Source: Anaerolineae bacterium
GTDB taxonomy: Bacteria; Chloroflexota; Anaerolineae; Aggregatilineales; Phototrophicaceae
Reading direction: 5' to 3'
Length of the DNA: 11,284 nt
NCBI GenBank assembly: GCA_025454715.1
Contig: JALONY010000053.1
Location: 1-11,284, forward strand
Shown one piece after another: positions 25 to 10,996 of the stretch (position 1 is its first letter; each line of letters opens with the position of its first letter). The notes under the pieces were generated by a model that saw only the letters and a program-made list of their open reading frames with translations, had not been told where the DNA came from and made no database searches. A program made the translations under genes and the position numbers.

Positions 25-1422
25 CTAATCGCCCGCCTCGGGCGAGACGGCCTCAATCAGGATATCGCGGGCACCGATGCGGTTGTTGGCCACCGCCACG
101 CCCTCGTGAATCAGCCCAGCCCAGCATTGTTGGGGGTTGCGCGTGGTCACGATGTCGGTCAGGCGCACCGCGCCCCACACCACCGACCGCTCCCCGGGGG
201 CGAGATAGTAGTACACGTTGTCATTGGTCGGGTCGGTGGCTTGGCGCAAGTCCTCAAATCGCCCGACTGCCCAACGGTAGGGGTAGCTCTGCTCCGACGT
301 GTCGCATTGCACCCCGACCCGCCACACGCCGTCTTGCTCGATGGCGTTGAGCGCCGCCGCGACCTGATCTTGTTGATAGACCGTGCCGGGCGGGGGGCCA
401 TCGGTGCGGATGGGGCTGGCGCCATAATTCTCGACCACCAGCCGGAACACCAACAGCTCACCCATCGGCACGATGACCGTGCCCAAGCGCACGTCGGTCG
501 GGTCGCTCGGCTCGTCCAGCAAGCGCCCCAAACCGTCCGAGTCCGAGAAGTACACCTCGTCATACGGCAGGGTCGAAAACGCGACATCCGCGCCCGTGAC
601 CTGCCCGACGATGCCCGCCCGTGGCTTGCCACCGTCTTGCAACGTCAACGCGCCGCGCTGGCTGACGCGCTGCCCGACCGCGTCTTGGGCTTCCAGCACA
701 ATCACGTAATCGCCGTCCGGCGGCGGCTCCGCCCCGATGTCCACCCCACCCTCATAATCGAACTCTTGCCAGCCGACCTCGCCGAGGCGGGTGCGCGTCT
801 GGCGCGGGGCGATGTACAAGCGCTCGCCCGCGTCGTCCACCAGATAGGCCGTGACGGTGGCCGGTTTGGTCAGGTAGGCGCTGACCGCGACGCGGTCGGC
901 CACGCCGTCTTGGTTGGGCGTGAAGGTGGTGGGCGACACGCTGAAATTGTTGAGCAACGGCAACTCGGCGTCGCCGCCCTCGATTTTGAGCGTGCCGCGC
1001 AATTGCCCGACCTCGGCCTGCTCGACCCCGACCGCGATGATTTCCCACAGGTAATCCCCGTCGGGCACCAAGCGCCGGTCAATCGTGCCCTCGAACGCCT
1101 CATCAGGCAAGCTGAACCCATCGACCACGCCGCTGAACTGGATGGCATATTGCCCGGGCGGGGTGCGGACGTTGGTGCGGAACTCGTAAATCGACTGTTC
1201 GCCGTCAATCAGGTGCAACGACACATCGGCGGTGCGCGCCAGCGTAAACGCGAACGTCACCACATCGGCCACCCCGTCGGCGTTGGGCGACAGCACCACC
1301 GCGTCGAAACCGGCCTCACTGACCAATGGCCGGTCGGGGTTGAGCAACGCACCGCTGGCCAGCACCACCAGCGCGGCGGCGACCACCGCCGCAACCGCAA
1401 TCACCGCCACAGACAAGCGCAT
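25..1422 (-). CDS. Secreted or anchored protein with two FlgD/CHU_C-like Ig modules
   Basis: The 465-aa product starts with a hydrophobic signal peptide or anchor (about residues 4-27) and has no lipobox Cys, so it is probably exported. Two related beta-sandwich modules follow. Each opens with an SPNxDGVAD/TPNxDGVAD-type motif (45-53 and 168-176) and closes with PDGDY plus a beta strand (120-124, 235-239). This pattern is known from FlgD Ig-like and gliding-motility C-terminal modules and suggests a structural or cell-surface role. The C-terminal third (about 285-460) looks all-beta, unassigned, with Cys373 and Cys433 as a possible disulfide pair. The ATG at 1422 has a GAGGGAG ribosome site about 8 nt upstream. 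It lies 20 bp after the DsbA-like gene, so the two are probably co-transcribed. No enzymatic motif is visible. The gene call is firm; function is unknown. Confidence 0.85.
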   Translation of the reverse strand: MRLSVAVIAVAAVVAAALVVLASGALLNPDRPLVSEAGFDAVVLSPNADGVADVVTFAFTLARTADVSLHLIDGEQSIYEFRTNVRTPPGQYAIQFSGVVDGFSLPDEAFEGTIDRRLVPDGDYLWEIIAVGVEQAEVGQLRGTLKIEGGDAELPLLNNFSVSPTTFTPNQDGVADRVAVSAYLTKPATVTAYLVDDAGERLYIAPRQTRTRLGEVGWQEFDYEGGVDIGAEPPPDGDYVIVLEAQDAVGQRVSQRGALTLQDGGKPRAGIVGQVTGADVAFSTLPYDEVYFSDSDGLGRLLDEPSDPTDVRLGTVIVPMGELLVFRLVVENYGASPIRTDGPPPGTVYQQDQVAAALNAIEQDGVWRVGVQCDTSEQSYPYRWAVGRFEDLRQATDPTNDNVYYYLAPGERSVVWGAVRLTDIVTTRNPQQCWAGLIHEGVAVANNRIGARDILIEAVSPEAGD

Positions 1423-1442
1423 GTTCTGCTCCCTCGCCCGTG

Positions 1443-2426
1443 TTAGCTGTCCGCCGTGGCGGTCGGCGCAACCGTCGGCTCGACAGTCGGCTCGGCAGTG
1501 GGTTCGGTCGTCGGCTCAGCGGTCGGCTCGGCGGTGGGTTCCGTCGTCGGCTCAGCCGTCGGCTCGGCGGTCACGTCGTCAGGGCTGACGGTGGCGTCAC
1601 TGGTCGGCTCAGCCGTCGGCTGGCCACCGCTCCGCAGCTCGAGGGCGCGGTTGATGGCGTCGTTGGCGGCCAACAACAAATCTTCACCGGCCACCGGCAC
1701 GTCATTGACGAACACGGTCGGGGCGACCACGGTCGAGTCGCGGCCACCGGCGTCTTGCTGGGCGCGGGTGATTTGCTCTTGCGGGCGGTTGCTCCGCAGG
1801 CAGTCATCGAACAAGCCCATATCCAGCCCGAGGTTTTCCGCGCCGCTCCGCAGGCGGTTGCTGGCATAGGCGCCCTGCACCCCATATTGGTCGAACCAGC
1901 CATAGGCCGCATCGACATAAGCGAACAAGCGGTTTTGCTCGTTGGCGCACCACGCGGCACGGGTCGCCCCTGCCGAGTTGCTGGCCTCCATGCGCTGGCT
2001 GGCGTCGTACAGCACATAGCTGAACGTGATTTCGCCAGAGCGCACGCGCTCCAGCAACGCCGGAAACACCGTGCGGTGGAACGTGCGCGAGTCGCTCTCG
2101 GACAAGCTGATGAAGGCCGACACGCGCACCGTGCCATCGGGGTTGCCGAGGCGCAGGTACCCGCGCTCGGTACGGCTGACGGGCAGGCCGTCGTAGCGGG
2201 CGGTCAGGTCGGTCGGGATGGGCGCCTCGACCGGCGCACGGCTGGCCACCACCGCCAGCAACACCGACAACGCAATCGCCAGCATCACCCCACCACCAAT
2301 CAAGAAGCGCTGGCGGCGTTGCTCTTGTTGGCGCTCTTGGCGGCGCTCACTGGCGCGATTGGTCGGCTTGGCAGGGGCGGCTTTTTTGGCGAGGGGGGCT
2401 TTGGTCTCGGGGGTCTTCTTGGACAT
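1443..2426 (-). CDS. Membrane-anchored DsbA/thioredoxin-fold protein lacking CxxC, with PT-rich tail
   Basis: The 327-aa product has a basic cytoplasmic N-terminus (1-40), one TM helix (about 41-61), an extracytoplasmic DsbA-like domain (about 85-262) and a Pro/Thr/Glu repeat tail (271-326). The DsbA family (Thioredoxin_4 type) is recognised from the segment after the first strand (RTFHRTVFPALLERV, 114-128), AAWCANEQNRLF (158-169), LFDDCL (205-210) and the cis-Pro motif APTVFVND (235-242). The position where relatives carry CPYC holds ESDS (110-113), so redox catalysis by the usual mechanism is not expected. Cys160 and Cys209 remain and could form a structural disulfide. The ATG at 2426 has GGAGA 6 nt upstream. 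It lies 51 bp after nusB. A chaperone-like or scaffold role is inference only. Confidence 0.82.
   Translation of the reverse strand: MSKKTPETKAPLAKKAAPAKPTNRASERRQERQQEQRRQRFLIGGGVMLAIALSVLLAVVASRAPVEAPIPTDLTARYDGLPVSRTERGYLRLGNPDGTVRVSAFISLSESDSRTFHRTVFPALLERVRSGEITFSYVLYDASQRMEASNSAGATRAAWCANEQNRLFAYVDAAYGWFDQYGVQGAYASNRLRSGAENLGLDMGLFDDCLRSNRPQEQITRAQQDAGGRDSTVVAPTVFVNDVPVAGEDLLLAANDAINRALELRSGGQPTAEPTSDATVSPDDVTAEPTAEPTTEPTAEPTAEPTTEPTAEPTVEPTVAPTATADS
1458..1616 (-). repeat. Degenerate 12-bp tandem repeat encoding TAEP/TTEP/TVEP units
   Basis: The 3' end of the DsbA-like gene is built of degenerate 12-bp units, read on the plus strand as variations of GTCGGCTCGGCG. They encode about nine Thr-x-Glu-Pro units (residues 287-318) plus looser flanking copies. 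Such Pro/Thr/Glu tails are common as extracellular linkers or wall-spanning stalks. The in-frame unit can expand or contract without a frameshift. Confidence 0.8.
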
Positions 2427-2477
2427 GCGCGGTCTCCGTGGGTGCGAAAGATAAACGGTGCGGGCAAGGCAATCGGG

Positions 2478-3002
2478 CTAGGCGGTCAACGTCCGCAACC
2501 GCGCCACCACTTCCTCGCGATCCATCAAGTTGCCCAGCACGCCGTTGACGAACCGCGCCGACGAATCGGCACCGTACTGCTTGGCGAGGCTGACGGCTTC
2601 ATCGATGGCCACGCCGACCGGAACCCAGTTGGCGATGGCATATTCATAGACCGCCAAGCGCAAGATGCACCGGTCGATGGCGGCGAGGTGGCGTACCGGA
2701 AACTCCGGCGCGAACGGCTGAATGGCCGCATCTAGCCCCTCGCGGTAGCGCAACACCCCCTCGACCAAGCGGCTGGCATAGACGGTCACGTCGTCCTCGA
2801 GGGTCGTGCGGTCGAGCCGCTGGTTCAAGCTGTTCATGACCTCACCCATCGGGTGGCCGGTCATATCCAGCTCATAAAGCGCCTGAAGCGCCAACACCCG
2901 CGAAATGCTGTGGGCGTGCTGCATCGGGGCGTGGTGGATTTCTTCGACCGTGACCTTGTCGTCGGGCGAGAGGTTATCGAGTTCTGGGATAGGGAGCGAC
3001 AT
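2478..3002 (-). CDS. nusB: Transcription antitermination protein NusB
   Basis: This is NusB, the RNA-binding factor that works with NusE (ribosomal protein S10) at boxA sites in rRNA antitermination in the cytoplasm. The 174-aa product shows the family landmarks in order: ALQALYELD (38-46), HLAAIDRCILRLAVYE (105-120), VAIDEAVSLAKQYG (131-144) and SSARFVNGVLG (147-157). An N-terminal extension of about 30 residues precedes the usual start. The internal Met27 would give a conventional length, but it has no ribosome site in front, whereas the ATG at 3002 has an AAGG about 9 nt upstream, so the longer form is preferred. It is separated by 102 bp from the upstream membrane-protein gene, and a promoter is predicted in that gap. 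It probably heads a unit with the DsbA-like and Ig-module genes. Confidence 0.95.
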   Translation of the reverse strand: MSLPIPELDNLSPDDKVTVEEIHHAPMQHAHSISRVLALQALYELDMTGHPMGEVMNSLNQRLDRTTLEDDVTVYASRLVEGVLRYREGLDAAIQPFAPEFPVRHLAAIDRCILRLAVYEYAIANWVPVGVAIDEAVSLAKQYGADSSARFVNGVLGNLMDREEVVARLRTLTA

Positions 3003-3104: not shown

Positions 3105-4094
3105 TCAGGATTGGGGGATATTCACCACGAACGGCACCAATTCGACCATCCCCAGCGCGTGTTGCCCCACCCCCGACAACACCTCGACATACCCACCCAA
3201 GCGATGACCACCCGCCGCCAGCGGGAATTGGTCGAGCGGGACGCTGAGCATCAGGTCGGCAGACTCCCCTACGCCATCCAAGCGGCGTTGTGCAGCCAGC
3301 TGGCCGCCCGAGGTGCGAAACTCGCTCAGCGCGGCAGGTGACAACAGCGGTTGAGCATCGCGGGTAAACCACACCCCGACCACCAACGGCTCTCGCGCAC
3401 AGCCCGCCGTGCTCAGGCCGACCTGCACGCGCAACGCCCCATCCACCGTGCCGGTTTCAGCGGTCAGTCCAGTGACCGTACAACCGGCCTCCGGCAACAG
3501 CGACGTATGCGAAGGGGTGTTGAACAACGAGGCTTCCGGCAAAACGGCCTCGGGTTGCTGCTGCAAGATGCTGGAGGTAAACGCCGTCAAAAAGGCCAGC
3601 CCCGCCAGCACGATGACCACCATCACCACCACCTGTTGGAGCACGCCCACCACCGCGCCCCACTGCACCCCCGCGACCGGCGGGCGGCGGCGCAAGGCCG
3701 CTGGCACCCGCTCAGGAAAATCCTGCGGGTCGGGCGGTGGGGGCTGTGGGCGGAATAACCCCACCGGCATCTGGCCAGCACGCCGCAACGCCAGCCGCTC
3801 CTCATCGGTCATCTCGGGGATGCGGGTGTTTTGGGGCAGGGGCAGCGCGTTCTTCAGGCGCGCCACATCCTCCTCGGTGCGTGGCTTGGGGCGGGCAGGG
3901 GGCGGTACGACGCGGGGTTGGGGGGGCGGGGGCGGCGCAACCGGCGGCGGGTCGGCAGGCAGGCTGCGCAAGCGCCGGATGGCATCTTCCACGACGCGCC
4001 GCCGCTCCTCGGGCGACATGCTGGCAAAATCGGACGGGCGCGCCGGTGGGCGGTTGGCCGGTGGCCGATTGGGCGGGCGCTGCGCGTCACTCAT
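3105..4094 (-). CDS. Proline-rich single-pass membrane protein of the ubiquitin-like operon
   Basis: I do not recognise this 329-aa protein. Residues 1-145 are hydrophilic with proline-rich stretches (7-20, 49-67, 116-129) and short charged, probably helical parts (27-44, 94-106). One TM helix spans about 147-172. The C-terminal part (about 180-329) looks like a beta-rich extracytoplasmic domain with two cysteines, 205 and 232, that could pair. The proline-rich part is predicted to be cytoplasmic. The only two lysines, 70 and 81, are both in it. The ATG at 4094 overlaps the E1 stop by 8 bp (ATGAGTGA), which argues for translational coupling with the conjugation genes. It could anchor, be a substrate of, or report on the pathway; none of these is shown by sequence. 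Confidence 0.83.
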   Translation of the reverse strand: MSDAQRPPNRPPANRPPARPSDFASMSPEERRRVVEDAIRRLRSLPADPPPVAPPPPPQPRVVPPPARPKPRTEEDVARLKNALPLPQNTRIPEMTDEERLALRRAGQMPVGLFRPQPPPPDPQDFPERVPAALRRRPPVAGVQWGAVVGVLQQVVVMVVIVLAGLAFLTAFTSSILQQQPEAVLPEASLFNTPSHTSLLPEAGCTVTGLTAETGTVDGALRVQVGLSTAGCAREPLVVGVWFTRDAQPLLSPAALSEFRTSGGQLAAQRRLDGVGESADLMLSVPLDQFPLAAGGHRLGGYVEVLSGVGQHALGMVELVPFVVNIPQS

Positions 4095-5547
4095 GGGCGC
4101 TGGGGGTCGGCAAATCGCTCAACGTGAGCGGCACGCTGGGGGTCAGCCCGAGCACCTGCTCGAGGTCGCCCGCCGCCAAGCGCCCGCCCACCCCACACAC
4201 CGCGCAATCCTCGCGCCGTGCCGCCGCAATCGAGCGGGTGCTGTGGTCGTGTAGGAAATAGTAGACCAAGCGTTGCGCCACACGGTAGCCGGTCAGCAGG
4301 TTCAAGAACTCGCCCACCGCCATCGAGGCCAATGTGCCGTTCAAGAACACCACCGAGGGCGCATGAATGTCCTCGGTCGGGATGTAACCGCGCTCTTGGC
4401 GTAGCTTGCGCTGCTCCGGCGGCAACAAATCGTCCGCGGCCATGGCCGAGTTAATCGCCCGCACGCACTCCAAACAAAAGCCGTCCGGCATCACCACGCG
4501 ATACTGCCCGCCCGACTCGGTGATTTTGCCGTCGGCGTCGGTCGTCAGCCCAACCCCGATGTCGATATAGGGCAACATGTACTGGATGGCGAAGCTGTTC
4601 AGCAACAAGCGGCTGCCGTGGCTGTCGGTACACCCGAACAGCACATCACACGTCTTGAGCGCGCTGGCGCTGGCCGGTGTCGGGAAGGCGCTGGCGTGCA
4701 CGTCGATACGCATGGTCTTGGGGTCGATGGCCTCCAGCGCATCGCGCATCACCTCGACCTTGCGACGCTGGCGTGCCGCGTCCAGCGCATCACCGCCGAT
4801 AAAGCGGTTGAGGTTCGAGTCTTCCAGCGTGTCGCCATCGACCAGCACGAACTGCCGGACGCCCAACAACGCCAATTGTTGCGCCACCGCGCTCCCGATG
4901 CCGCCCAGCCCGACGATGCCGACCCGCGTGGCGCGCACCCGCGCCTGCCCCGCCGCCCCAAAGGCTTGTATCTGGCGGCTGAAACGCGCCTGATAGCGCG
5001 CCGCCTCGGGGTCATCGGCCTGCTCCCGCAGGGCATACCGTTTGATGGGGTGGCTCAGGATGGTCACGCCGTCGATTGGCTCCATCTCGGCGCTCTCAGG
5101 GTTATAAATCATCCCGTCGGCGCTATCGTGCCCGAACACCAGCATCAAATGGTGAAACGGCGGCTTGGCCTTGCTGGCGAACCACGCGAAGCGCGGCGCA
5201 GCCTGCGTCGTATCGATGCTGGAAAACCCGACGTGCTCATGCGCGAACGGGTGCGAGTGAATCTCGATCAGGCTGTATTCGTTGGTCAGGGTATGGCGCG
5301 CCACGCGCTGGGCGGCCTCGTCGGTCATGTGCAGATAACCGCCGTTTTGCGTCACGTAATCGCTCGGCTCCATCGGCAACAGGTGGTGCACCAACAAGCG
5401 CAAGCGCCCCTCGCCCTCGGCAGGGGTGGCAAACGCGAAAGCGGCTTGTTCGTCGCCGTTGGGCTGAAATAGGTGCGCGTGCAACCACGCGAATTGTTGG
5501 GCGCTGAACACCACCTCGACCGACCTAGGCCGCGCCGCGCCGCTCAT
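4087..5547 (-). CDS. JAB metallopeptidase fused to ThiF-type E1 (ubiquitin-like activating/deconjugating enzyme)
   Basis: The 486-aa product is a two-domain fusion. Residues 1-165 are a Prok-JAB (Mov34/MPN/PAD-1) zinc peptidase with a probable catalytic Glu33, HSH at 97-99 and SSID at 109-112, the JAMM pattern HxH-x9-SxxD. Residues 185-455 are a ThiF/MoeB/E1 adenylating domain: GLGGIG nucleotide loop (213-218), Asp239, SNLNR (244-248) with the Arg finger, Lys263, CTD (306-308), and zinc pairs CxxC at 358/361 and 448/451. The E1 should adenylate the C-terminus of the ubiquitin-like protein encoded two genes upstream; JAB should cleave conjugates. The crossover segment (about 386-404) has no Cys, so the usual thioester site is missing. 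The start at 5547 is chosen because it forms an ATGA overlap with the E2 stop and has GAGGG about 8 nt upstream; a GTG at 5580 is the alternative. Confidence 0.93.
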   Translation of the reverse strand: MSGAARPRSVEVVFSAQQFAWLHAHLFQPNGDEQAAFAFATPAEGEGRLRLLVHHLLPMEPSDYVTQNGGYLHMTDEAAQRVARHTLTNEYSLIEIHSHPFAHEHVGFSSIDTTQAAPRFAWFASKAKPPFHHLMLVFGHDSADGMIYNPESAEMEPIDGVTILSHPIKRYALREQADDPEAARYQARFSRQIQAFGAAGQARVRATRVGIVGLGGIGSAVAQQLALLGVRQFVLVDGDTLEDSNLNRFIGGDALDAARQRRKVEVMRDALEAIDPKTMRIDVHASAFPTPASASALKTCDVLFGCTDSHGSRLLLNSFAIQYMLPYIDIGVGLTTDADGKITESGGQYRVVMPDGFCLECVRAINSAMAADDLLPPEQRKLRQERGYIPTEDIHAPSVVFLNGTLASMAVGEFLNLLTGYRVAQRLVYYFLHDHSTRSIAAARREDCAVCGVGGRLAAGDLEQVLGLTPSVPLTLSDLPTPSAHE

Positions 5548-6005
5548 TTTTTGCCCTCTTTGCCGAGGATGCCGAGGCACAAATGCAAATAACTCATCAA
5601 ATTATCGCCACTGCCCGGGTGGTTGCTGGGGCGCCACGTCCCGTTGGGGACGTTGTGGGCGTGGGCACAAAACCACTGCCAGCCGTTCTCGATCAATTGC
5701 TTTTGCCACTCGGGATAATATTTGTCGCGCCAACCCAGAAAATAATGGTTGGTGATTCGTAAGCCCGCATCACAATAAAACCCGTCGGGAGGGACTTGTG
5801 GATAAGCCATCGGCACCAGCATCAACACATCGACCAACCCATCGCCGGTCTTGGTCAGGCGCGGGGGCACGGGCAAGCGCTTGACGCACACCCACAAGCC
5901 TTCTTTTTGGTCGAACGTCACCCTGCCGGGTTCGGTGCCATAGTCGGGCGCGACGACATGAAACACCTCATCGCGCACCCGCCGCAACAACGCGGTCTCA
6001 CCCAT
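5544..6005 (-). CDS. Divergent bacterial E2-fold (UBC-like) protein, probably Prok-E2_E type
   Basis: The 153-aa protein would accept the activated ubiquitin-like protein from the E1 and pass it to a target. The assignment rests on three things. There is a beta-strand run ending in a YP..PPD motif (68-74), typical after the third strand of UBC folds. A Trp/His-rich segment and Trp-Arg-Pro follow (WQWFCAH 109-115, TWRP 123-126), then a C-terminal helix. And it lies between the modifier and E1 genes. The best family match I know is prokaryotic E2 family E. No HPN motif is seen. Four cysteines are present (40, 78, 113, 143); Cys113 and Cys78 are the plausible active-site candidates, but I cannot choose firmly. 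The ATG at 6005 has a strong GAGGGGAGGG site. It starts 32 bp after the modifier gene. Confidence 0.78.
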   Translation of the reverse strand: MGETALLRRVRDEVFHVVAPDYGTEPGRVTFDQKEGLWVCVKRLPVPPRLTKTGDGLVDVLMLVPMAYPQVPPDGFYCDAGLRITNHYFLGWRDKYYPEWQKQLIENGWQWFCAHAHNVPNGTWRPSNHPGSGDNLMSYLHLCLGILGKEGKK

Positions 6006-6037
6006 CGTATCCCTCCCCTCGCGCTCAGGCGCACGGC

Positions 6038-6259
6038 TCAGCCATAAATGAACGACGGCAAATCTTCGAAACGCTCGTATTGCCCGACTTGGACGTGCTC
6101 GCTCTTGTCGATGATGGTGCGCTCGCCGCGGGTGTTGACCGCAACGACCGTCCGCATCGGGTCGCGCCCAGCCTCGACCAAAATCTCGCGCCCCGTCTTG
6201 ATTGGCGCGTTCGTCTCGACGAATTGATCACCGACCCAATATCCGTTTTGGCGTGCCAT
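6038..6259 (-). CDS. Ubiquitin-like modifier protein (multiubiquitin-family beta-grasp), single domain
   Basis: The 73-aa protein resembles one unit of the bacterial multiubiquitin family (beta-grasp): an N-terminal strand pair (YWVGDQFV, 7-14), a KTGREILVEAG segment (21-31) where the helix starts, then VVAVNTRGERTII (38-50) and a C-terminal ERFEDLPSFIYG. The stop comes directly after Gly73, so the product would need no cleavage before activation. There is a single terminal Gly, not GlyGly. Lys21 and Lys52 are the only lysines. It is the first gene of the operon, 32 bp ahead of the E2 gene and in the same operon as a JAB-E1 fusion, the classical neighbourhood for a bacterial ubiquitin-like modifier. 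A GAGAGAGG stretch lies upstream of the ATG. Fold assignment by eye is tentative, but context makes the role likely. Confidence 0.8.
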   Translation of the reverse strand: MARQNGYWVGDQFVETNAPIKTGREILVEAGRDPMRTVVAVNTRGERTIIDKSEHVQVGQYERFEDLPSFIYG

Positions 6260-6341: not shown

Positions 6342-6371
6342 ATCATACTGCCAAACGTTTCCCTACGTCAA
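6342..6371 (-). promoter_or_regulatory. Predicted sigma70-type promoter of the ubiquitin-like operon
   Basis: On the minus strand, -35 TTGACG (6366-6371) and -10 TATGAT (6342-6347) are spaced by 18 nt, each with five of six consensus bases. The start would be near 6335, leaving a leader of about 75 nt before the modifier ATG. An A-rich stretch (6384-6390, AAAAAATA on the minus strand) upstream of the -35 could act as an UP-like element. Confidence 0.6.
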
Positions 6372-7778: not shown

Positions 7779-8120
7779 ATGCCCATCACCCTGCTGCGTG
7801 CACCCGTCGGGGCGGGCAAGACCCGCGCCATCATCGAGCACATCAACGCCACCTACCGCGCCGACCCGTTGGCACGGGTGTGGGTGGTGTTGCCCACCGC
7901 CCGCCAAGAGTTCACCCTGCGCCAGCGGCTGATTGACGAGGGCAGCGGCAACGCGCCGTTGTTCAACCTCGAATTGTTCAACTTCTACGCGCTGTACGAG
8001 CGCGTCTTGCTGGCCGCCCGCCAGCCGGTCTACGAGGTCTCGGGCATGAGCCGGATGATGGTGGCACCTATACGCCCATCGCCAAGACCCTCGGGTTTGC
8101 CGAGCTGGTCAGCCGCCTGA
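7779..8120 (+). CDS. AddB-like helicase/nuclease, N-terminal fragment (frameshifted)
   Basis: This 113-codon frame is the 5' part of a broken AddB-like gene. It carries a Walker A-type ATP site APVGAGKT (8-15) and the following family-typical stretch VWVVLPTARQEFTLRQRL (about 34-51) and FNLELFNFYALYERVL (about 60-75). The ATG at 7779 has AAAGG 7 nt upstream and lies 10 bp after the NERD-like gene. True homology seems to stop near residue 93-95; from about 8065 to the stop at 8120 this frame is the shadow of the continuing gene, which moves to the frame used at 8162-10996. If not repaired, the fragment would be a nonfunctional ATP-site peptide. Confidence 0.75.
   Translation: MPITLLRAPVGAGKTRAIIEHINATYRADPLARVWVVLPTARQEFTLRQRLIDEGSGNAPLFNLELFNFYALYERVLLAARQPVYEVSGMSRMMVAPIRPSPRPSGLPSWSAA
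8036..8075 (+). other. Frameshift/deletion site inside the AddB-like gene
   Basis: Coding passes from the frame of 7779 to the frame of 8162 in this interval. Both frames are open here: the second has had no stop since 7936. There is no slippery heptamer that would suggest programmed slippage. Comparison with the family from memory suggests roughly 10 residues are missing between SGMSRMMV and TYTPIAKTLGF, so a small out-of-frame deletion fits slightly better than a one-base error. Confidence 0.7.
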
Positions 8121-8161: not shown

Positions 8162-10996
8162 TTGGAGGTGGCCACCACCCCCAAAGACCGCGAATTGGCC
8201 ACCCTATATGCCCGCTACCAAGCCGCCTTGCAACGGGGCGGCGGCGCGGTGCCGCTGGCCGACATCGAAGGCTTGGGCTGGCTGGCCTTGGACGTGTTGG
8301 AGCAACGCCCCGACACCGTGCCGCGCCTCGGCCTCTTGGCCGTCGATGGGTTCGATCAGCTCACGACGGTGCAAGCCGACCTCGTGCGGGCGCTGGCTCA
8401 GCGCGCAGACCAGACCGTGCTCAGCCTGACCGACATGCCCGAGCGCGTCGGGCAACGCGCCCGCAAAACCTACGACCTGCTCACCCGCCCGCCCAACGCG
8501 GTCGAGCCCGTGTCGTTGCCGCCCCGCCCGTTCCAAAGCCCGACCTTGGAGCACCTCGCCCGCAACGCCTTTGCCGAGCACCCCACCCGCACCCCGCTGG
8601 CCGCCGACGACGAGGCGCTCACCTTCATCGAGGCCGCCGACCCGTTCGCCGAGTCCAGCGAGGTCATGCGGCGGGTCAAACGCTTGCTATTGGGCGGTGC
8701 CCCCGCCGAGTCGGTCATGATCGTGGTGCGCGATTGGGCGACTTATGCACCGCCCCTCACCCGCGCCGCGACGGCATTCGGCGTGCCGGTGGCCATGCAC
8801 CACGGCCAAAGCCTGACCGATCACCCGTTGGGCGCGTTCGTCGAGTCCGTGTTACGCCTATCCGAAGAGGACTTTCCGACCCCAGACCTGCTCGAGGTGC
8901 TGCAATCGCCCTATGTGCGCCTCGCGGACGAACACGCGCTCGACCCGGTGGTGTTGAACGCTATCGCCCAACAAACACACCTCATGGGCGGTGAGCAAGC
9001 GTGGCTGTCGGCCATCGAAGCCGTGGCGCAACACGGCCTCAACCCAGACGATGAATCCGAGTCCATCGTGTTATCGCCAGACCAACGCGACGACCTACAA
9101 GCCCGCCTCGTCACATTGTTCCAAGCCGTGCGCCTGCCCGAGGCCGCCACGCTCAACGATTACGTCCAGCGCGTCGAGGAGTGGTTCGGGCACGATGAGC
9201 AAACCGATACCGCCGTGCCGTTGGCCTATACCCTCGGCACGTTCGACGCGCTCCGCCATGCCGCCGATACGTCGGACGCCCAGCACGACCGCGACGCCTT
9301 GCGCGCCCTAAAGGACGCCCTGCGCCACCTGCTCAACGCCCATGCGCTGGTGCGTTGGCTCAGCGGCAGCACCGAGGCCGATGTGCTCACCCGCCAACAC
9401 TTCCTCAGCGATTTGCGCGCCGCGCTCAACAACGCCAGCCTGCGCGAGCCGTCCAGCCGCGCTGGGCGCGTGCTCATCACCCAGACCACCGATGCCCGTG
9501 GCCTGCCGCACGATAGCGTGTTCATCATCGGGCTGTCGGAGGGCATGTTTCCGGCCAAGACCGCCGATGACCCGCTGTATCTGGACGCCGAGCGCGAGTT
9601 GCTGACCGAGCGTTTGCGGCGCGTGACGGGTGGGGTGGTCGGGCTGGCCACCCGCGCCGAGCGCGCCGGTGACGAGGGCATTTTCTACGAGCTGATTGGC
9701 CTGCCGCGCCAACGTTTGGTGCTCTCGCGCCCCTACCTGCAAAACGGCGGCAGATGGCCGGCCAGCTACCTGTGGCGCGCCAGCGTCGAGCCGTTCGCCA
9801 GCACCTACGACCAGTTGCCCAGTACCCGCCGCGTGCGCGTGGCACCTGCCGCCTTGCCCCTGCCCCAAGACGCCGCCACCCTCAGCGAGCTGGGCGCCAG
9901 CCTGTTGCACGCCGACCCCGTCAACGACGACGTGCGCGGGTTTGTGGCCTACCTGCACGCCCAACACGGCGCGTGGCTGGCGCACACCCGCCAAACCACC
10001 CTCATCGAGCAACAACGCCAGCGCTCCAACGCCCCGACCAGCCCGCACACCGGCGACCTGCGCGATACGCCCTACGCCGCACCGTTGGCACAACGCTATG
10101 GCGACGACTACCGCTGGAGCGTCAGCGCGCTAGAGACGGCCTCGGTCTCGGCTTATCAGTTTTTCGCCAAGCGCGTGTTGGGGTTACAAGAGGTCGAGGA
10201 GGTGTCCGACGAGGTGGATATCCGGTCGGTCGGCAACGCCATGCACGGCATCTTCAACGACCTCTACACCCGCTTCATGCAACACGGCTGGTCGGTCTCG
10301 CCCGAGCACGCCCATGCCGCCCTCGCGCTGGCCGAGGCCGAGCTACCGGCGTTGCTGGACGAGGCGCCACACACCTGTGGCTTCGCCGACTCGACTGAGT
10401 GGGCGCTGGAGCGCATCAACCTCCATCAGCGCATCCTCGGCCTCATCGCAGCCGATTTCAGCAGTGAGAACGCGCTGACGACAGCGTTCAACATCACCAA
10501 GCCGCGCCTGCCCCTCTTGCGTGAATGGGCGTTCGATGCGCGCATCGCCTTGCCCAACGCGCAGGTCATCCACTTGCGCGGGCGCTTCGACCGCGTGGAT
10601 GTGGTCAAGCTGGGCGACGGCTTGGGGTTCGTGCTCATCGACTACAAAAGTGGCAAGACGCCCTACGACAAGAAAGAGCTCACGACCGGCAAGAAGCTGC
10701 AAATGCCGCTCTACATCCGCGCCCTAGAGCACTTGCTCAAGACCGGCCAGCTCGACGCGGTGCTGCGCGCCGCCAAACTGCCCACCGACGCCACCCAACT
10801 GGTCGTCTTGGGCGGGCTGTACTGGGGCGTTAAGGGTATGTTCCCCAGCCTCGCGACGGTGAAGGCCGAGGATACGGACTTGATAGACGCGGCGCTCCAG
10901 CGCACGGCGACCCTCATCCAGCGCATCCGTGAGGCCGATTTTACGCCCAGCGCCCTGCTGCCCGATGAGGGGAAATGCGACAAAACGTGTGCCTAG
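8162..10996 (+). CDS. AddB-like ATP-dependent helicase/PD-(D/E)XK exonuclease, main part after frameshift
   Basis: This 944-codon frame is the bulk of an AddB/RexB-like subunit for double-strand break end processing. Coding in this frame really starts near 8042-8066 (TYTPIAKTLGFAEL...); TTG 8162 is only the first possible start. Visible parts: LAVDGFDQLTTVQADLV (about 58-74) of the Walker B region, helicase segments VMIVVRDW and SLTDHPLGAFVESVL, the motif ITQTTDARGLPHDSVFIIGL with EGMFP (about 440-464), then the RecB-like nuclease with GNAMH (His695), LRGRFDRVD, IDYKSG (Asp827, Lys829) and QMPLY. AddB Fe-S clusters use one Cys before the nuclease and three at the end. Here the first site reads SAYQFF (Ser for Cys) and only Cys939 and Cys943 remain before the stop. 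No AddA is in the window. It converges on and overlaps lgt. Confidence 0.87.
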   Translation: MEVATTPKDRELATLYARYQAALQRGGGAVPLADIEGLGWLALDVLEQRPDTVPRLGLLAVDGFDQLTTVQADLVRALAQRADQTVLSLTDMPERVGQRARKTYDLLTRPPNAVEPVSLPPRPFQSPTLEHLARNAFAEHPTRTPLAADDEALTFIEAADPFAESSEVMRRVKRLLLGGAPAESVMIVVRDWATYAPPLTRAATAFGVPVAMHHGQSLTDHPLGAFVESVLRLSEEDFPTPDLLEVLQSPYVRLADEHALDPVVLNAIAQQTHLMGGEQAWLSAIEAVAQHGLNPDDESESIVLSPDQRDDLQARLVTLFQAVRLPEAATLNDYVQRVEEWFGHDEQTDTAVPLAYTLGTFDALRHAADTSDAQHDRDALRALKDALRHLLNAHALVRWLSGSTEADVLTRQHFLSDLRAALNNASLREPSSRAGRVLITQTTDARGLPHDSVFIIGLSEGMFPAKTADDPLYLDAERELLTERLRRVTGGVVGLATRAERAGDEGIFYELIGLPRQRLVLSRPYLQNGGRWPASYLWRASVEPFASTYDQLPSTRRVRVAPAALPLPQDAATLSELGASLLHADPVNDDVRGFVAYLHAQHGAWLAHTRQTTLIEQQRQRSNAPTSPHTGDLRDTPYAAPLAQRYGDDYRWSVSALETASVSAYQFFAKRVLGLQEVEEVSDEVDIRSVGNAMHGIFNDLYTRFMQHGWSVSPEHAHAALALAEAELPALLDEAPHTCGFADSTEWALERINLHQRILGLIAADFSSENALTTAFNITKPRLPLLREWAFDARIALPNAQVIHLRGRFDRVDVVKLGDGLGFVLIDYKSGKTPYDKKELTTGKKLQMPLYIRALEHLLKTGQLDAVLRAAKLPTDATQLVVLGGLYWGVKGMFPSLATVKAEDTDLIDAALQRTATLIQRIREADFTPSALLPDEGKCDKTCA

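Follow-up and report, generated by a model that had tools for sequence, protein, structure and literature searches.

The window analysed here is the entire 11,284-base contig C167 from the draft genome (G000; 2.67 Mb, 71% complete) of an Anaerolineae bacterium, and its minus strand carries a four-gene operon for ubiquitin-like conjugation (6259-3105). In order, the genes encode a single-domain ubiquitin-like protein (Ubl, 73 aa), an E2-fold protein (E2, 153 aa), a fusion of a JAB metalloprotease part with an E1 adenylation part (JAB-E1, 486 aa) and a protein that crosses the membrane once (MP, 329 aa). Judged from sequence, the first three genes belong to a known operon type, the type 6e of Iyer 2006, which corresponds to Bub, an equation drawn in this analysis; both the gene order and the one-domain Ubl are ordinary there. 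A cysteine in the nucleophile column of E2 and the presence of MP set the window apart from ordinary Bub. With moderate confidence, we read the operon as a Bub-type variant of one genus, in which the Ubl would be adenylated, carried as a thioester on Cys113 of E2, conjugated at the membrane and removed by the JAB part.

The JAB-E1 gene (4087..5547, minus strand like the other three; ATG at 5547, with an alternative GTG start possible at 5580) ties the operon to Bub. Its product matches ThiF in Pfam at 1.2e-38, and its best match in the PDB is Citrobacter BubCD (2e-33 over residues 14-425), while its ThiF part matches Cap2 weakly (1.8e-6, PDB). The E1/ThiF part (residues 189-448, 4204..4983) retains the G213 loop, N245, R248, K263 and D308, presumably the adenylation residues, together with C358, C361, C448 and C451, which we take to be of zinc type. 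Between residues 362 and 447, the region where E1s of the MoeB/ThiF type carry their cysteine, none of the E1s from the three genomes of the genus (G000, G001 and G002) has a Cys. The JAB/JAMM part (residues about 8-150, 5098..5526) has all five of the residues to which we assign the JAMM role, namely E33, H97, H99, S109 and D112.

The modifier gene (6038..6259) ends in Gly73 (codon 6041-6043; sequence end ..FIYG), and a C-terminal Gly is common to 14/14 aligned Ubls. The family assignment comes from a profile built on 21 Ubls (selected as single-domain) in other loci, which was tested on the 372 open reading frames (ORFs) of the three genus loci. Below an E-value of 1e-3 it picks exactly the three Ubls of the genus (1.7e-8, 9.7e-5 and 1.4e-4, the last being that of the window). 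A profile-profile alignment with hhalign gave a probability of 95.1% and a score of 41.2, against at most 17.6 across 300 column shuffles. Pairwise profile comparisons with small alignments were weak (14% and 6%), whereas the larger profile was clear. The Ubl would thus adopt a beta-grasp fold, a prediction that rests on homology and not on the structural model described below, since that model is poor and unmatched.

The E2 gene (5544..6005) belongs to the Prok-E2_E family (PF14462) with 28.4 bits against a cut-off of 25, and a profile of 20 E2s of the family matches Citrobacter BubB at 2.4e-17. The nucleophile column, across 38 aligned E2s that include near-copies, holds Ser in 27, Cys in 11 and no other residue; the window has Cys113 (codon 5667..5669) and BubB has Ser (WSRH). 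This column, the correspondence with BubB and a following W-P pattern, typical of E2s, suggest that Cys113 is the nucleophile. On an unrooted tree of 38 of 39 E2 rows (a 45-aa fragment from L055 was dropped), the 11 Cys E2s form one side of a branch with support 99/93, and the branch persists with 94/89 once the nucleophile position and the two columns flanking it on either side are removed. Seven of the Cys E2s form a sub-group (97/94), and three E2s found later (L115, L130 and L131) have Cys in this column too.

MP (3105..4094) has a single strong hydrophobic segment, a transmembrane (TM) stretch at residues 155-173 (3576..3632; mean hydropathy 2.75). It separates a proline-rich N-terminal part, presumed cytosolic (3633..4094; 37 Pro among the first 154 residues), from a C-terminal domain presumed to lie outside (3117..3542). 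The N-terminal parts in G000 and G001 have in common a PLPxNTR...LRRAxQ stretch, proline richness being lower in G001 (17/143 vs 37/154), and the two MPs match each other by BLASTP at 5e-13. All three MPs have two Cys in the C-terminal part, Cys 205 and 232 in G000.

Profile comparison shows the C-terminal domain of MP to be homologous to that at the C-terminus of trypsin-like proteases from the same family. When 151 genomes were searched with the three MPs, no further full-length relative appeared; the 13 weaker hits (1e-7 to 1e-2) come from G000, G002 and eight other genomes, and eight of them fall on the C-terminal domain. Five of the proteins behind the hits carry one or two copies of this domain (L105, L106, L107, L112 at 1327-2991 (+), and L113). 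The four that were scanned (L105, L107, L112 and L113) are Trypsin_2 proteases above the Pfam cut-off, one of them in the window's own genome, and their MP-type domain has no Pfam match at 0.01; to the eye, the proteases have a signal-like N-terminus. A profile of seven protease C-terminal domains, built with MP sequences excluded, picks exactly the three MPs below 1e-3 among the 372 ORFs (2.7e-6, 9.8e-5 and 4.8e-4), and hhalign gave 96.5% and a score of 61.0, 150 shuffles reaching 19.6 at most. Across 5260 ORFs (131 loci and the window) the MPs scored 3.8e-5, 0.0014 and 0.0068, ranked behind proteases, and nothing beyond proteases and the three MPs fell below 0.01. This homology makes the domain a probable extracytoplasmic module of the lineage, in support of an N-in/C-out orientation. 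The counts of Lys plus Arg in the 15 residues before and after the TM segment favour the same orientation in G001 (3/0) and G002 (3/1), and we infer a type II membrane protein with its N-terminus inside.

The ORFs, coordinates and spacings of the four genes are all as given in the original prediction, which had proposed a ubiquitin-like conjugation operon and, coupled to it, a proline-rich membrane protein: a 32-bp gap between Ubl and E2, a 4-bp ATGA overlap between E2 and JAB-E1, and an 8-bp overlap of JAB-E1 with MP. In G001 the frames of JAB-E1 and MP overlap by 23 bp. The profile and shuffle tests bear out its single-domain Ubl. Of the family searches that it proposed, those for Prok-E2_E (above cut-off) and ThiF gave matches, Prok-JAB stayed at 0.067, under the Pfam cut-off, and the Ubl alone reaches the cut-off of no Pfam family. 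It had also made conservation of the four-gene order in relatives a test; the order is kept only inside the genus (3/3 genomes), the fourth gene not having been found with the trio elsewhere.

The operon has a sporadic distribution. At 1e-20, a JAB-E1 search of 61 genomes matched three, the window's own and the other two of the genus, with 0/34 among other genomes of the family and 0/24 among those of the order; at this threshold 24/400 genomes of the phylum match, and Prok-E2_E was found in 9/298 genomes of the class. MP is followed on the same strand by genes for NusB, for a DsbA-like protein and for a product whose CHU_C match is under the Pfam cut-off. The genes that diverge from the operon on its upstream side encode a response regulator, a product whose NERD match is also under cut-off and an AddB-like protein (Pfam). 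G002 keeps this entire stretch around the four genes. In G001 the four genes are on contig C470, which ends 0.3 kb before the Ubl gene, and NusB does not follow MP; NusB, DsbA and CHU_C are on contig C198, where the 1.5 kb upstream of them contains none of the four genes. We consider MP tied to the trio because the four genes stay together while the downstream neighbours differ. A mobile or viral origin was considered and rejected: 139 plasmid records match JAB-E1 at less than 60% identity, five phage records match it in the ThiF part only, and no relative was found among viral contigs.

In the order of events that we infer, JAB-E1 would adenylate Gly73 of the Ubl, and no maturation cut would be needed since the Ubl gene already ends in Gly. 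The Ubl would then probably move more or less directly to Cys113 of E2 as a thioester, because the E1 has no cysteine at the MoeB/ThiF-type position. E2 would attach it to an amine or hydroxyl of a target, from which the N-terminal JAB metalloprotease would remove it. MP may anchor these steps at the membrane, with its proline-rich inner tail as a candidate first target or enzyme docking site, and its outer domain might bind something in the envelope or outside.

Several observations weigh against this Bub-type membrane reading. The single-sequence AlphaFold models are poor, with a pLDDT of 58.8 for the Ubl (order strand-strand-helix-strand-strand) and 47.4 for E2; the Ubl model matches nothing in the PDB at E 0.001, a PDB search with the window E2 alone gave one chance match (E 1) and no related chain, and, as said, the Ubl has no Pfam family of its own. 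On a tree of 41 of 42 E1 rows (the shorter of two L064 fragments was dropped), the Cys-E2 systems are not united: the Cys/Ser label needs three changes, L020 stands apart and the window's genus is left unplaced. In the JAB part of G001 (L008:10450-11910 (-)), Glu33 is replaced by Lys and His97 by Asn, each in 1/42 rows. Deconjugating activity is probably lost there, and with these two replacements the JAB removal step is probably not essential in G001, whose E1 adenylation residues are intact. MP is only 26-30% identical within the genus and so diverges fast. The G000 protein has no Lys or Arg within 15 residues on either side of its TM segment, hence no charge bias. In G002 (L007:10138-11008 (+)), MP has 201 aa from its ATG, which lies 240 bases past the JAB-E1 stop, and the stretch before this ATG is open in another frame than that of the TM and outer parts, whether real or by assembly error. 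Finally, only three genomes of the genus are available.

A possible, if rather unlikely, alternative is an antiphage system that places the Ubl on a host or phage protein during infection, with MP as membrane effector or sensor. It draws on the nearest kin of the E2: by sequence, the E2 of the window's genus is related to a CRISPR-adjacent sub-group, and the seven loci of this sub-group plus three later finds of the same type all adjoin CRISPR-Cas genes or arrays (10/10). These sets span Microcystis, Aphanizomenonaceae and Nostoc plasmids as well as genomes of the same phylum. The Microcystis plasmid (L086/L116) has cas1, cas2, cas10, Cmr3, cmr4 and an array, the Aphanizomenonaceae locus (L087) cas2, cas10, Cmr3 and an array, and the Nostoc locus (L115) cas1, cas2 and two genes annotated as CRISPR-associated. 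A type III RAMP, Cas6 and Csx15 are above cut-off in L023; Csx15 is present in L024 and L022, a CARF match under cut-off occurs in L023 and L024, L130 has a type III RAMP and Csx15, and L131 has Cas6 and NYN. L088 has cas1 (best fit type I-D), cas2, Csx15 and an array, with RAMP genes some 13 kb off on the same contig, and L089 has arrays and NYN, RAMP and Cas1 not being found in that genome. An NYN-domain gene is often close in such loci, and explicit type III effector genes are present in 4/10 of those fetched. The Ubl is a separate gene in 7/10 and off the contig in L022; in L088 (9192-9875 (-)) and L089 (9509-10375 (-)) it is apparently fused N-terminally to E2, with weak profile matches (0.21 and 5e-4). 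Arrays were found in 4/33 loci scanned, all four of the CRISPR-linked kind, and not in L022, L023 or L024.

The window's genus itself gives the antiphage alternative less to build on. Its three loci have no array, profiles for Csx15 and NYN (built partly on the CRISPR-linked loci) match in 0/3 genus loci and 0/16 other JAB-E1 loci, and no RAMP protein was found in the three genomes. A Ser-type genome (G397) with cas1 about 6 kb from its operon speaks against a clean Cys/Ser split. Bub operons in other genomes have regulators in common with immune operons: PMC13373217 counts 544 operons, linking 219 of them with CapW or CapH+CapP and 59 with CapK+CapS, and says that Bub has not been shown to protect against phage. 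None of these regulators is among the 12 window proteins scanned, and on those counts they are not universal in Bub either. The neighbours of the operon are conserved between G000 and G002, which also argues against defence. The CRISPR-adjacent sets are possibly an undescribed CRISPR accessory module, and we recognised no description of the link between Ubl sets and CRISPR in the open-licence PMC literature, within the search terms used.

The synteny of G000 and G002 around the operon (NusB, the DsbA-like protein, the divergent response regulator) is what an envelope-stress or housekeeping regulator can call upon, MP sensing the outside and the Ubl tagging membrane proteins. This alternative, which we hold only tentatively and think rather improbable, is also favoured by the C-terminal domain that MP has in common with trypsin-like (HtrA-type) proteases, including the one in the window's genome. 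It is weakened by G001, where NusB is not adjacent, and by the 34 other genomes of the family that lack a JAB-E1 match at 1e-20. The CRISPR-linked kinship leans to defence, whereas the synteny (two genomes) and the protease-type domain lean to envelope sensing.

The trio might also work as a Bub system with MP an unrelated neighbour, there by chance or co-transcription. That MP diverges far faster than the trio, which is 60-70% identical within the genus, would fit such a view, as would the lack of any match to an MP profile in Bub-like loci outside the genus (131 loci fetched), and only three genomes of the genus are available. We nevertheless think it unlikely, as MP follows the trio in all three genomes, in overlapping frames in G000 and G001, and the genes downstream differ in G001. 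Similarly doubtful, as an extension of the Bub-type membrane reading, is a Ubl pathway wired to a single-pass receptor, in which ligand binding by MP would trigger conjugation of the Ubl onto the proline-rich tail through the Cys-thioester E2. A trio that forms no conjugates and has a sulfur-carrier or biosynthetic role like that of ThiS/MoaD is very improbable, the absence of a transfer cysteine in the E1 and its top-ranking NCBIfam models, MoeB and ThiF (every match far under cut-off), being outweighed by the E2 and JAB partners, the relation to BubCD and BubB and a window with no biosynthetic neighbours.

Around the operon, a promoter-like TTGACG-18-TATGAT (6342..6371, minus strand) lies upstream of the Ubl gene, and a second, weaker site at 3076-3047 lies between MP and NusB. 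Both are consensus matches only, the region holding 2 such sites against 0.6 expected, and the weaker one is consistent with the unit ending at MP. Among the flanking genes, the AddB-like gene is split into two ORFs in the window (7779-8120 and 8162-10996 (+)) and is one 1083-aa ORF in G002 (L007:3265-6516); the DsbA/thioredoxin-like protein (1443-2426 (-)) has C-terminal Thr/Pro/Glu repeats of the PT type. Two further candidate operon loci, L005 and L006, were rejected, their matching ORFs looking like proteases with a short motif and no E2 near.

Should the receptor version be true, the Cys branch, shared with the CRISPR-linked sets, would represent a thioester form alongside the Ser one, and the switch of the E2 between Cys and Ser would be traceable within one family. 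The Cys-or-Ser column with its grouped Cys E2s offers a natural pair for comparing thioester and oxyester chemistry in E2s, and Bub enzymes reportedly use an unusual ester chemistry. The co-occurring MP is a concrete candidate for the site where the pathway acts in this branch, and the CRISPR-linked kin make it possible to test whether Ubl conjugation is tied to CRISPR-Cas immunity.

Compared with known systems, the window shares with Bub and type 6e a Ubl, an E2 and an N-terminal JAB-E1 fusion in the same order. In Iyer 2006 (PMC1779556), type 6e has one to three Ubl repeats, a JAB fused N-terminally to the E1, an E2-like domain that is in some cases encoded on its own between the Ubl and JAB+E1 genes, a patchy spread and a metal-binding protein with the signature C-x3-C-x35-38-H-x2-C; its E2s were at first taken for dead enzymes because the conserved cysteine is missing. 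The claim that the layout matches nothing known therefore fails, the layout being of a known kind, and the minimal one-domain modifier is not unusual either, single-domain Ubls being common in related loci (by ORF length). Unlike type 6e as described there, the window E2 has a cysteine and the locus has no metal-binding protein (DUF6527). This protein was found in 6/7 named plasmid loci, 0/3 genus loci and 1/26 loci searched in all, and in that of L079 the signature is visible by eye. The seven plasmid loci share the core, with a separate E2 gene in the same order in 5/7; in L082 and L083 the E2 profile matches the Ubl gene product itself.

Besides the homology of JAB-E1 to BubCD and of E2 to BubB (PDB 9ea4, 9ea5, 9eae and 9eav), neither the window E1 nor BubCD has a Cys in the stretch RGYI..APSV, whereas BubCD has one further on (SACVSEF) at a place where the window E1 has none. 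Unlike Bub, the window has Cys as its likely E2 nucleophile where BubB has Ser, and an additional membrane protein. CBASS and Bil have a similar Ubl-type conjugation logic. Type II CBASS (Cap2/Cap3) combines a cGAS-like cyclase with an E1-E2 fusion, and was rejected here because the E2 gene is separate, the E1 is laid out differently and no such cyclase is among the 12 window proteins scanned. Bil, with its BilA-D gene set, free JAB and two-part E1, was rejected as the window has its JAB fused to one ThiF domain only. The CRISPR-linked sets resemble the window in their Cys E2, JAB-E1 and single-domain Ubl, the E2s of the seven that are on the tree being grouped with that of the window; the CRISPR, NYN and Csx15 neighbours belong to those sets, and MP belongs to the window's genus.

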